Shown: one piece after another, positions 35,192-39,624 of the stretch
How positions within the stretch are numbered: the stretch's first letter is position 1
How the letters are laid out: the number at the start of each line of letters is the position of its first letter
From: Hyalangium ruber
GTDB lineage: Bacteria; Myxococcota; Myxococcia; Myxococcales; Myxococcaceae
Reading direction: 5' to 3'
DNA: 64,000 bases
Assembly (NCBI RefSeq): GCF_034259325.1
Contig: NZ_JAXIVS010000018.1
Span: forward strand, 1 to 64,000
Translations under genes and position numbers: made by a program
The notes under the pieces: generated by a model
The model's input: only the letters and a program-made list of their open reading frames with translations
Told to the model about the DNA's origin: nothing
Databases searched by the model: none

Positions 35192-36088
35192 ATGCCTGCA
35201 CAGCACTTTCTGACTTCCCTCTTCATCCCCTGCCTACGCCCGCCAGCCCGAGGCCTCGAGGCGCCGCCGGAGTTGGAGGCGTATCTCTTGGAGATGCTGG
35301 CCAACGCCCGCGCGGCGTGGCCTGGCCTGAACCTGCCAGAGGCCACCTTCCTCCGCTACCTGGCCGAACGGCTCCCGGAGGAGGGCTCACTCCTGGACGC
35401 GCTGCGCAGGCTGCATGTCACGGACCTCTACCTCGCCTGTGCCTGCACCGAAGGGCTCGCGGCCGCTCAATCCGTGCTGGACACGCGCTTTCTCCCGAAG
35501 GTGGACGCGGCGGTGGCTCGGGTGGAGGGCTCGGGGAACAAGGCCGCAGAGGTACGCCAGCGCTTGCGCGAACGGCTGCTCATCTCGGAGGACGGAAGGC
35601 CCCCTCCCCTCGCCGGCTATCAGGGCACGGGCCCGCTCGTGGCCTGGCTGCGCGCGGCCGCGGTGCGCACCGCCCTCAACCTCCGGCGCTCGGAGCGCAG
35701 GCGGGCCCGCGTCGAGGAAGAGGTGCTCTCCGAGGGGCCGGTGGTGGGAGGAGACCTGGAGCTGGACTACCTGCGGCAGAAGCACCGGGTGGACTTCCAG
35801 GCCGCGCTCGCCGAGGCGCTGGCGGCGCTGCCTGCCCGTGAGCGCACCGTGCTGCGCCTGCACTTCGTCGAGGGGTTGAGCCTGGAGCGAATCGGCGCCA
35901 TGTACCAGACGCACAAGTCCACGGTGTCCCGGTGGCTGGCACGCGCCCGGGAAGAGGTGCTCGCCGAGGTACGCAGGCGGCTGGCGGAGCGGCTCCAGCT
36001 CTCCGCCGAGGAGCTGCAGAGCCTGCTGCGCGCCATCCGCAGCCAGCTCGATGCCAGCCTCTCCCAGCTCCTGCCCCGCTCGGAGTAA
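35192..36088 (+). CDS. RNA polymerase sigma-70 family (ECF-like) factor
   Basis: 298 residues. The C-terminal region 4 is clear: LPARERTVLRLHFVEGLSLE, then RIGAMYQTHKSTVSRWLARA (helix-turn-helix). Ahead of it, PLVAWLRAAAVRTALNLRRS resembles the end of region 2. The N-terminal half is more diverged, and there is a C-terminal extension of about 45 residues after region 4, as in myxobacterial ECF factors tied to Ser/Thr kinases. It is followed by a secreted pilus-N-like protein and a kinase whose N-terminus is an anti-sigma-type zinc finger, so that kinase is the likely regulator of this factor. Confidence 0.85.
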   Translation: MPAQHFLTSLFIPCLRPPARGLEAPPELEAYLLEMLANARAAWPGLNLPEATFLRYLAERLPEEGSLLDALRRLHVTDLYLACACTEGLAAAQSVLDTRFLPKVDAAVARVEGSGNKAAEVRQRLRERLLISEDGRPPPLAGYQGTGPLVAWLRAAAVRTALNLRRSERRRARVEEEVLSEGPVVGGDLELDYLRQKHRVDFQAALAEALAALPARERTVLRLHFVEGLSLERIGAMYQTHKSTVSRWLARAREEVLAEVRRRLAERLQLSAEELQSLLRAIRSQLDASLSQLLPRSE

Positions 36089-36173
36089 TGCGGTGCGCCA
36101 GACGATTTTTTCGCGGCGCTGTGCAACGCCGCGCGGTCACCGGTGTCACCTGGGCGAAAGGGAGGAAATCACC

Positions 36174-36482
36174 ATGAAGCACTTCGCTCGCAGCATCCTT
36201 GTGGCCCTGACCCTGTTCGCAGGTCCCGTGCTTGCCAACCCGTCGTCCCCGCCGCCCGCGTCCGCGGATACGCATGAGACCCTGAGCCTGCGCAAGGGCG
36301 GCTCGAAGGTGGTGCAGGCTCCAGGCATGAACCGCGTGGCGGTGGGGGACCCCGAGATCGCCGAGATCACGTTCCCGGAGGATGCCGTCATCCACGTCAC
36401 GGGGCTGAAGGCGGGAGAGACGACGCTCGTCGTCTGGATCGGGACGACGATCAAGACCTACCGCATCGTCGTGCAAGGCTGA
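36174..36482 (+). CDS. Secreted pilus-formation N-terminal-domain protein
   Basis: 102 residues. The signal peptide (ILVALTLFAGPVLA) is followed by one domain of the T2SS/T3SS pilus-formation N type, normally found at the front of CpaC-like secretins: SLRKGGSKVVQAPGMNRVAV, GDPEIAEITFP, then VTGLKAGETTLVVWIGTTIK. Here it is free-standing, not fused to a secretin. The extracytoplasmic C-terminus of the kinase encoded 74 bases downstream has the same domain, so the two may bind each other or a common ligand. A GGGAGGAAA ribosome site precedes the ATG. Confidence 0.85.
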   Translation: MKHFARSILVALTLFAGPVLANPSSPPPASADTHETLSLRKGGSKVVQAPGMNRVAVGDPEIAEITFPEDAVIHVTGLKAGETTLVVWIGTTIKTYRIVVQG

Positions 36483-36555
36483 GCCAGACGGTGAAGCCTC
36501 GCGCGAAGCCGGGGGCTTTCCCGGCTCTGCCCGAGGCTGAGAAGATGCCTTGGTC

Positions 36556-37998
36556 ATGAACGCCTCCGCGCACTCCCTGCCCGAGCGGTGCCCGGACGAG
36601 AACGCGCTCGCGAGCTTCGCGAGTGGCGCCTTGTCCGGCCCGAACGCTTCGAGCGTGGAGACCCACCTGGATGGGTGCGCCGACTGCCGCGCCCTGGTGG
36701 CGGCGGTCGCGGCCGAGCACTCCGCCACGGACGCCATGAGCCTCCAGACGCGGCTGGATACGGGGGTGCCGACGCAGCTGGACACGGGTGAGTCGCTGCC
36801 GCCGCCCGTCCTCGAGGGGCCACCGCTACGGCCGGGAGAGGTGCTCGGCCGCTTCGTCATCTCCGGAGTGCTGGGAGCGGGGGGAATGGGCGTGGTGTAC
36901 GCGGCGGAGGATCCACAGCTGGGGCGGAAGGTGGCGCTCAAGCTGCTGCGCTCGGCGAGGGCGGACGCCACGGAGGAGCGACAGGCGCGGCTGCTGCGCG
37001 AGGCTCAGGCCATGGCGCGGCTATCGCACCCGAATGTGCTGCCCGTCTTTGACCTGGGCACGGAGGGAGGGCAGGTGTTCCTCGCAATGGAGCTGGTCGA
37101 GGGACCGACGCTGGCGGAGTGGCTGCGGCAGCGCGAGCGCCCCTGGCGCGAGGTCGTGGAGCTCTTCCTGGAAGCGGGCCGAGGGCTGGCCGCCGCGCAC
37201 CGGGCCGGGCTGGTGCATCGCGACTTCAAGCCGGCCAACGTGCTGGTGGGCAGGGACGGGCGGCCGCGCGTGACGGACTTCGGGCTGGTGCGCGTGGGCG
37301 CGAGCGGGGAGGAGGTTGTGGCCGAGGCGGCTGCAGGAGGCTCCGAGCTCGCCCTCACCCAGGCCGGTGCGGTGCCCGGCACGCCCGCCTATATGTCCCC
37401 CGAGCAGCTCGCAGGCCGCCCCGTGGATGCGCGAGGCGACCAGTTCAGCTTCTGCGTCGCGCTCTACGAGGCGCTGTACGGCCTGCGCCCCTTCGCGGCG
37501 GAAGCACCGCCGGAGCGCCGCTGGACGTTGCGGCGCCCGGAGCGTGGACCTCGCCTGCCAAGACAGGTGAAGGCCGCGCTCGCCCGGGGGCTGGCGCTGG
37601 AGGTGGAGGACCGGTTCCCCTCCATGGATGCGCTCCTGGCGGTCCTGGCCCGGCCCCCGCTCCTGCGCGGGCGCTGGTGGGCGCTGAGCCTGGCTGCGGG
37701 ACTCGCCCTTGCGGGAGTGGCGGTAGGCACCCAACGAGAGTTCGCGGACGCCTTGAGTGTGGACGACCTGGTCCCCCTGTCGCTCGCGGTGGACGAGACG
37801 AGCGCCCTCGAAGTGCCGGGGGTGTCGCGGGTGGCCGTCGAAGAGCCTGGCATCGTGGACATCGTCGCGGATGGAGAGCAGCTGCACCTGGTGGGGCTGA
37901 CACCCGGGGCCACGCGGTTGATGGTGTGGACGAAGGACAAGCAGCGCCACGACTTCCTTGTGACCGTCATGGGGCATCCGGCTCCCGCCTCCAGGTAA
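36556..37998 (+). CDS. Transmembrane Ser/Thr kinase with anti-sigma zinc finger and pilus-N-like sensor
   Basis: 480 residues from the ATG at 36556. Domains in order: a zf-HC2-type zinc finger (residues 10-60; CPDENALASFASG, then HLDGCADCRAL); a Hanks kinase (about 90-370) with LGAGGMGVVYAAED, VALKLL, LVHRDFKPANVLVGRDG, VTDFGLVRVG and GTPAYMSPEQLAGRPVDARG, all catalytic residues intact; one membrane helix (WALSLAAGLALAGVAVG); and an outside domain PGVSRVAVEEPGIVDIVADG followed by LVGLTPGATRLMVWTKDKQR that matches the secreted protein just upstream. The layout suggests a receptor that holds the sigma factor through its zinc finger and signals by phosphorylation. Confidence 0.9.
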   Translation: MNASAHSLPERCPDENALASFASGALSGPNASSVETHLDGCADCRALVAAVAAEHSATDAMSLQTRLDTGVPTQLDTGESLPPPVLEGPPLRPGEVLGRFVISGVLGAGGMGVVYAAEDPQLGRKVALKLLRSARADATEERQARLLREAQAMARLSHPNVLPVFDLGTEGGQVFLAMELVEGPTLAEWLRQRERPWREVVELFLEAGRGLAAAHRAGLVHRDFKPANVLVGRDGRPRVTDFGLVRVGASGEEVVAEAAAGGSELALTQAGAVPGTPAYMSPEQLAGRPVDARGDQFSFCVALYEALYGLRPFAAEAPPERRWTLRRPERGPRLPRQVKAALARGLALEVEDRFPSMDALLAVLARPPLLRGRWWALSLAAGLALAGVAVGTQREFADALSVDDLVPLSLAVDETSALEVPGVSRVAVEEPGIVDIVADGEQLHLVGLTPGATRLMVWTKDKQRHDFLVTVMGHPAPASR

Positions 37999-38457: not shown

Positions 38458-39624
38458 ATGGCATCGAGGCCCGCTGGAGTCCTCCGGTTTCTTCTGGCGT
38501 GGGTGTGTCTGCAAGTCATCAGCGCGTGTGGTGATGACACACTCCCGCCCCAACCTGCTCCCGAGCGGGACACCACGGCGCCGACCACCCAAGCGACGCA
38601 GCCGGGGGGAACCTTCACCTCGGCCGTCTCGGTGACGCTGACGTGCGCGGACGCAGGGGGCAGCGGCTGCGAGGCCACCTACTACACCACGGATGGCTCG
38701 ACTCCGACGAAGAGCTCCCCCCGCTACAGCGCGCCCCTCTCTCTGGAGGCCACCACCACCCTCCGGTTCTTCTCGGTGGATGTGGCGGGCAACGCGGAGT
38801 CGGTGAAAGCCGAGACGTACACCATGACCCTGGAGGTGGCCGATACCACGGCGCCGACGGTGAGCGCCTCGCCGGCAGGGGGCACGTACAACACGGCCCA
38901 GAGTGTCACGCTCACGTGTACGGACGGCACGGGCACCGGTTGCCAGGCCATCCGCTACACCACGAATGGCTCCACGCCAGCAGCCTCCTCCACCGCGTAC
39001 ACGGCGCCCATCGCGGTGAGCGCCAACACGACGCTCAAGTTCTTCGCGACGGATGCGGCCGGTAACGCCTCGGCGGTGGTGAGCGAGACCTATGTGCTCG
39101 ACACCACGCCGCCGACGGTGTCGGCCAGCCCCACAGGCGGGACGTACGCCTCGGCGCGGACCGTGAAGCTCACCTGTACGGACGGCTCGGGCACAGGCTG
39201 CGCCGCCATCCACTACACCACGGACGGCAGCACGCCAGACACCAACGCCGCGCGGTACACGGAGAGCCTGTCCATCGGCGCCACCACCACGCTGCGGTTC
39301 ATCGGTGTGGACAACGCCGGCAATGTGAGCGCCGTGAAGACCGAGGAGTACCTCATCGACACCACGCCACCCACCACGACCATCAGCCCGGAAGGTGGGG
39401 TGTACTCGGAGCCGCAGACCGTCGTGCTCAGTTGCAACCACGGCCCGGTGGGCGAGTGCGACACCACCTATTACACCCTGGATGGCAGCACGCCGGACAC
39501 CAACTCCCCGGAGGCCAACACCCCGCTGTACATCGAGGTCACCACCACGGTGAAGTACTTCTCGATGGACACGTACGGCAACCGCGAGCCCGTGCAGTCC
39601 CAGACCTTCGTCATCACCCAGTGA
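38458..39624 (+). CDS. Lipoprotein with four chitobiase/hexosaminidase C-terminal repeats
   Basis: 388 residues from the ATG at 38458. A lipoprotein signal (LLAWVCLQVISACGDD) is followed by four tandem beta-sandwich repeats of the CHB_HEX_C_1 type, each about 85 residues, with the shared core T-x-T-C-x-D-G-x-G-x-G-C, then IHYTTDGSTPDTNAARYTE and TTTLRF. Each repeat has a Cys pair that could make an internal disulphide. The first three repeats are very similar and suggest recent duplication; the fourth (from about residue 305) is more diverged. Probably a surface-displayed binding or spacer protein. No enzymatic domain. Confidence 0.88.
   Translation: MASRPAGVLRFLLAWVCLQVISACGDDTLPPQPAPERDTTAPTTQATQPGGTFTSAVSVTLTCADAGGSGCEATYYTTDGSTPTKSSPRYSAPLSLEATTTLRFFSVDVAGNAESVKAETYTMTLEVADTTAPTVSASPAGGTYNTAQSVTLTCTDGTGTGCQAIRYTTNGSTPAASSTAYTAPIAVSANTTLKFFATDAAGNASAVVSETYVLDTTPPTVSASPTGGTYASARTVKLTCTDGSGTGCAAIHYTTDGSTPDTNAARYTESLSIGATTTLRFIGVDNAGNVSAVKTEEYLIDTTPPTTTISPEGGVYSEPQTVVLSCNHGPVGECDTTYYTLDGSTPDTNSPEANTPLYIEVTTTVKYFSMDTYGNREPVQSQTFVITQ

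Follow-up and report, generated by a model that had tools for sequence, protein, structure and literature searches.

According to one review, the kinase-linked groups of ECF sigma factors were set apart because a kinase gene, rather than a gene for an anti-sigma factor, usually accompanies them (PMC8999054). In ECF43 (EcfP/PknT and EcfK/PknS), the sigma gene lies beside the gene for a transmembrane (TM) Hanks kinase, which presumably controls the sigma factor. Class I zinc-binding anti-sigma factors, such as RslA, ChrR, DdvA and RsiW, carry an N-terminal Hx3Cx2C three-helix domain, and many of them sit in the membrane and have a sensor outside. Helix 1 of the class I domain is reported to touch sigma4, and helix 4 sigma2 (PMC7406223). 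In Mycobacterium, PknB phosphorylates anti-sigma factors, which frees the sigma factor (PMC8999054); PknB action on anti-sigma factors is also cited from PMC13147305.

The window analysed here, a stretch of 64,000 nucleotides of Hyalangium ruber DNA, contains a three-gene module in which all features lie on the forward strand. The first gene (35192–36088) encodes an ECF-like sigma factor of 298 aa (TIGR03001, Sig-70_gmx1). The second (36174–36482) encodes a secreted (periplasmic) protein of 102 aa with a signal peptide and one PF13629 (T2SS-T3SS_pil_N) domain. The third (36556–37998) encodes a 480-aa receptor kinase composed of a zf-HC2/zinc-finger anti-sigma (ZAS) domain, a linker, a Hanks Ser/Thr kinase domain, one TM helix and a PF13629 domain. 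The Pfam and NCBIfam profiles and an AlphaFold2 model agreed with the first-pass annotation on all three genes, including the full Hanks domain, the single membrane helix and the outer domain that matches the free secreted protein, but that account had overlooked a conserved promoter-like element in front of the free-protein gene. Compared with ECF43, the module kinase adds the N-terminal zinc-finger anti-sigma domain, region 2.2 of the module sigma factor retains an acid, and the gene between sigma and kinase encodes a secreted partner that shares the outer domain of the kinase. Compared with class I anti-sigma factors, whose N-terminal domain it shares, the receptor has a full kinase domain inserted after the anti-sigma domain and ahead of the membrane helix. 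We rate sigma-linked kinases and zinc-finger anti-sigma factors as known; what we regard as new is that the two are fused and combined with a duplicated sensor domain and with a feedback promoter that is nearly unique. A description of the module was not found in the open-access literature searched; the main ECF classification paper lies outside that literature, and a prior mention of the pairing is possible.

The kinase tail served as query against 145 genomes of the order, and reading of 40 loci then yielded 26 PF13629-kinase loci. The first-pass annotation had suggested looking in other myxobacteria for the same zf-HC2/STPK/PF13629 architecture, and had regarded a kinase never near a sigma factor as evidence against its reading. 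In these relatives the sigma gene was upstream in 26/26 loci, an arrangement far beyond chance, although many loci came from close relatives and the counts are not independent. The sigma gene was inside the stretch examined in 24 loci; in the other two it lay further upstream, at a distance of 4.8 kb in one and about 9 kb in the other, split off by inserted DNA, which at one of them carries an IS66-like element. A free PF13629 gene was present between sigma and kinase in 25 of the 26, which supports a tight coupling of the secreted protein to receptors sharing its outer domain. The exception, L085 (5913–8441, reverse strand), has, beside a TIGR03001-type sigma factor, a zf-HC2 kinase whose PF13629 domain is repeated in tandem, giving four to five copies; no free PF13629 gene was found at this locus, where the free partner is possibly fused to the receptor. 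Two PF13629 kinases in tandem were observed at L099, L100 and L078, and a free protein with two PF13629 domains at L104, L106 and L079. At two loci, a second free PF13629 gene lies upstream of the sigma gene (L073, 7741–8205; L098, 4771–5460), so that the sigma gene is flanked by two.

With orthology of the sigma factor set at a score of at least 280 bits, the next best score being 230, an orthologue was present in 32/145 genomes. Carriers include Archangium violaceum, A. lansinium, Pyxidicoccus caerfyrddinensis and several Myxococcus species, among them an M. xanthus strain. No published phenotype for the M. xanthus copy was found in the open-access literature, which was searched in part with a guessed locus-tag range, MXAN_0077-0082. 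A typical Myxococcus module was also present at L119, in a genome named Comamonas sp. KCTC 72670, which is probably misnamed. When seven flanking proteins of the window were searched beside other modules, none recurred, two distant-family matches aside. Just downstream of the module, the window encodes a secreted protein with four CHB_HEX_C_1/Fn3-associated repeats (38458–39624), which is not conserved beside other modules. The module is small, its neighbourhoods are unrelated, its carriers include culturable Archangium and Myxococcus (the M. xanthus strain among them), and it provides a ready reporter promoter. It therefore offers a direct test of sigma capture, of phospho-release and of what a free copy of the receptor's sensor domain does.

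The ZAS domain comprises kinase residues 1–56 (36556–36723), with the ligands C12, H37, C41 and C44. The Pfam scores of the kinase were 24.4 bits for zf-HC2 (cut-off 22.2), E 8e-37 for Pkinase and E 4.6e-8 for PF13629. In the AlphaFold2 model, which was built with 29 family sequences, the N-terminal helices (15–22, 29–38 and 42–56) are placed as in zinc-finger anti-sigma domains, followed by a disordered linker, the kinase, a TM helix (371–397) and an all-beta outer domain (400–472). On the DNA, the Hanks-type kinase domain spans 36847–37647, the single TM helix 37666–37731 and the periplasmic PF13629 domain 37753–37971. The catalytic motifs, all of them intact, and the one TM helix identify the protein as a Hanks-type Ser/Thr receptor kinase, and the arginines N-terminal of the TM helix indicate, by the positive-inside rule, that its N-terminus is inside and its C-terminus outside. 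The zinc finger was the weakest call from the single sequence, and was secured by family conservation and PDB profile matches. The signature C-xn-H-x3-C-x2-C was unbroken in 30/30 module kinases, and a profile of the kinase N-termini matched anti-sigma factors in the PDB, with RslA the best (4.5e-5), followed by ChrR (1.3e-3), DdvA and RsiW. The upstream Cys/His with H-x3-C-x2-C, the three N-terminal helices and the adjacent sigma gene (at every PF13629-kinase locus and at 8/8 of the source genome's own paralogues) agree with a class I ZAS domain at the N-terminus. Thus the anti-sigma-type finger proposed in the first pass was upheld; the contrary finding, that the N-terminus is no zinc finger, did not emerge given the three-helix model and the invariant ligands, and the computation agrees that finger, kinase and sensor are joined in one receptor.

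The sigma factor matched TIGR03001 with E 9e-88 and 293.7 bits (cut-off 154.6), and therefore belongs to this family. Its sigma2 region lies at about residues 76–180 and its sigma4 region at about 203–260, with family-specific helical extensions at both termini. Sequence profiles grouped the module sigma factor with AlgU, RpoE and SigW, and its predicted structure was confidently helical. The top Foldseek matches were ECF sigma factors complexed with anti-sigma factors or polymerase (E 2e-3); their low TM-scores are probably due to different domain packing and to the additional N- and C-terminal helices.

The best explanation of these findings, in which we have moderate confidence, is that the receptor is an anti-sigma factor, kinase and sensor with a periplasmic partner, fed back by its own sigma factor. 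Architecture, linkage, zinc ligands, catalytic residues, PF13629 co-occurrence and an essentially unique promoter were computed directly, and we infer sigma-ZAS binding, the direction of regulation, phospho-release and a PF13629-PF13629 contact. The cytoplasmic ZAS domain would hold the cognate sigma factor, and the periplasmic PF13629 domain of the kinase and the free PF13629 protein would sense an envelope state. The response of the kinase would be an (auto)phosphorylation event, whose probable site is the linker beside the sigma-binding domain, upon which sigma would be released. Free sigma would then fire the TGCAAC-N14-GGTGTCA promoter, yielding more secreted partner and receptor, so that the sigma factor would be re-captured. 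The candidate autophosphorylation site is the linker at residues 65–78 (36748–36789), which contains TRLDTG and TQLDTG. The pattern TxxD/E-T(G) was present in 17/29 module kinases, in 0/40 other zinc-finger kinases beside TIGR03001-type sigma factors and in one of the source genome's own paralogues, and the TxxDT motif was absent from tandem-kinase and distant modules. Linker autophosphorylation is favoured as the release step because of the TRLDTG linker after the third helix, these counts and the analogy with PknB; it is the least certain step of the scheme.

Alternatively, the kinase might activate the sigma factor by phosphorylating it, as in PknT/EcfP and PknS/EcfK, with the zinc finger merely a docking site. 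ECF sigma factors beside Ser/Thr kinases are known, with direct phosphorylation as the activating step for two of them (PMC8999054; PMC13147305), and the module kinase is catalytically complete and resembles PknS among others. However, ECF43 sigma factors have a phospho-acceptor Thr for the acidic DAED, whereas the module sigma factor does not show this replacement: E120, which corresponds to the acid in region 2.2 in the alignment to RpoE and AlgU, is invariant among module sigma factors. An EcfP-like phospho-activation site was searched for in the module sigma factor and not found, as none of the variable neighbours of E120 is a conserved Ser/Thr across the module sigma factors. The retained acid without a conserved Ser/Thr disfavours EcfP-type activation, and the best matches of the kinase N-terminus are anti-sigma factors that sequester their sigma factor. 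We therefore consider activation by direct phosphorylation unlikely.

The source genome encodes 8 TIGR03001 sigma factors above the cut-off, and 8/8 adjoin a kinase with an N-terminal Hx3Cx2C finger. The seven further pairs have the same sigma family, zinc finger and kinase order as the module, but their kinases end in different, mostly long C-terminal parts; PF13629 parts were found in the window pair only, and the others have neither a PF13629 domain nor a free PF13629 gene. We gathered 80 loci with the module-sigma profile, including named organisms across Myxococcota. A kinase was present within 1.5 kb of the sigma gene in 60/80 loci, and 57 of those 60 had the finger. In other Myxococcota, TIGR03001-like sigma genes that lack a kinase gene at up to 1.5 kb distance were found at L130, L134, L136, L143, L147, L151, L154, L159, L160, L181 and L183. 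Together, the source genome's own pairs and these loci (57/80) indicate that an anti-sigma finger/kinase fusion beside a sigma gene is common in myxobacteria. The first-pass statement that no described example of this exact fusion is known is therefore too strong: the finger, kinase and sigma combination forms a large paralogue family, of which eight pairs occur here, and what is special is the PF13629 sensor with its secreted partner. Because one protein carries both anti-sigma and kinase parts, here and in the myxobacterial paralogue family, the division of ECF groups needs a third class. Over 63 pairs, sigma distances correlated better with the distances among ZAS domains (r 0.73) than with those among kinase domains (r 0.57), and 0/2000 shuffles were as high; within the 8 own pairs there was no difference (r 0.43 for sigma-ZAS and 0.44 for sigma-kinase). 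As the pairs share ancestry, this correlation is only suggestive of an association between sigma factor and ZAS domain.

The zinc finger might instead anchor the sigma factor while the kinase mainly phosphorylates other proteins, so that anti-sigma factor and kinase would be two outputs of one sensor. The kinases of the paralogous pairs are often extended by several hundred residues C-terminal to the kinase domain, and myxobacterial kinases are numerous, at about 100 per genome (PMC7694542), both of which are consistent with additional substrates. The conserved unit, however, consists of three genes, to which no shared fourth partner or substrate gene is linked, and we regard a kinase with a separate output as distinctly unlikely.

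Under the preferred reading, in which the receptor captures its own sigma factor, the sigma/secreted-gene gap would contain the feedback promoter. Gap alignment of 13–14 modules revealed (T)GCAAC and CCGGTGTCA as two boxes that do not vary; the spacer between them does, and the stretch upstream is rich in T. In the window the promoter-like element, TTTTCGCG-N6-TGCAACRC-N12-GGTGTCA, lies at 36108–36148, with the -35-like TGCAAC at 36122–36127 and the -10-like GGTGTCA at 36142–36148. By its sequence, TGCAAC-N14-GGTGTCA before the free-protein gene has the form of a two-box ECF promoter. Genome-wide searches were run with reversed-pattern controls. The short motif with zero mismatches gave 18 matches in 23 module genomes, 18/18 of them at the module and none elsewhere. 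With up to three mismatches, the extended motif was found in 28/145 genomes (reversed control, 0 matches), and at the module in 25/32 genomes with the sigma orthologue versus 0/113 without it. Of these 25 copies, 23 were 17–36 bp past the sigma gene, and the other two remain before the secreted gene although inserted DNA displaces the sigma gene by 1.4 or 9.3 kb. In G081, the promoter boxes are one base closer. Extended-motif matches away from the module occurred in G101, G112 and G133; the three-mismatch match in G101, which overlaps the start of a polyketide-synthase-like gene, was judged to be due to chance, and G112 has a similar match. One-mismatch and gapped searches for further promoter targets stayed at the level of the reversed-pattern controls.

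Since all perfect copies are at the module, the recognisable target of the sigma factor is its own partner and receptor. That the module's sigma factor reads this promoter is suggested by linkage and co-occurrence. Because sigma recognition was deduced in this way, the element might instead be bound by a different regulator or function as RNA. The two invariant boxes keep a fixed spacing across a variable spacer, however, and a version with the spacing one base longer found no module. The lack of perfect copies elsewhere in the genomes indicates that the element is not a general regulator's consensus. An RNA element or terminator was also rejected, as an Rfam search of the gap gave nothing above threshold, a single microRNA hit falling below it, and no terminator was found there. 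A role other than as promoter for this sigma factor thus appears quite improbable. A more tentative reading, somewhat less likely than not, is a closed circuit in which the only consensus-strength promoter in the genome would make the sigma factor's own partner and receptor, and the free and receptor copies of one periplasmic domain would meet, holding the ratio of partner to receptor at a set point.

The secreted protein matched PF13629 with E 2e-13, and its N-terminal hydrophobic signal ends at VLA/NP. Among the 80 sigma loci, 9 had both a kinase PF13629 domain and a free PF13629 gene, 0 the kinase domain alone, 1 the free gene alone and 70 neither (p 4e-11, with loci that are related and not independent); at the sole free-only locus the contig stops before the kinase. 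In a tree of the PF13629 domain, the free and kinase domains formed long-separated lines, a weak result from 70 columns only, and similarity between free and kinase domains within an operon was not above that between operons, which lends the proposed contact between them no support. The idea that the free protein is a recent duplicate of the kinase domain was unsupported, as the two lines are old and separate. On the simplest view, the free protein would pair with the outer domain of the receptor itself.

The PF13629 domain is common to Tad/CpaC-type secretins (RcpA) and the module, but in the module it is found on the kinase and on a free secreted protein, and the secretin domain PF00263 is absent from both. 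The source genome has a PF13629 secretin elsewhere (L034), in which PF00263 is present. The proposal that the outer domains read a Tad-type secretin or pilus assembly, with the free protein as a bridge or decoy (as the first-pass annotation had suggested), accords with that secretin, with the domain profile matches to RcpA (3e-12) and 8jvb (3e-15) and with MXAN_1370, a small PF13629 protein that M. xanthus encodes among minor-pilin and PilY1 genes (PMC13190605), but it is very improbable, because no secretin or pilus gene was seen beside the modules read, the window's tested neighbours do not recur, free-module domains stand apart from secretin domains in the short-alignment tree, and many genomes have PF13629 matches without the module.

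Secreted PF13629 proteins were also encoded at L035 (6003–6704, which also has a BON domain), L092 (5430–6086) and L093 (3060–3716). At L035 and L092, the gene downstream of them is the same conserved one, coding for about 505 aa, and there is no kinase or sigma gene, which represents another conserved myxobacterial setting of PF13629. Lone small secreted PF13629 proteins, encoded divergently from a conserved TPR-like gene, were observed at L036 (6150–6575), L083 (5283–5675), L084 (5538–5864) and L091 (5054–5425).
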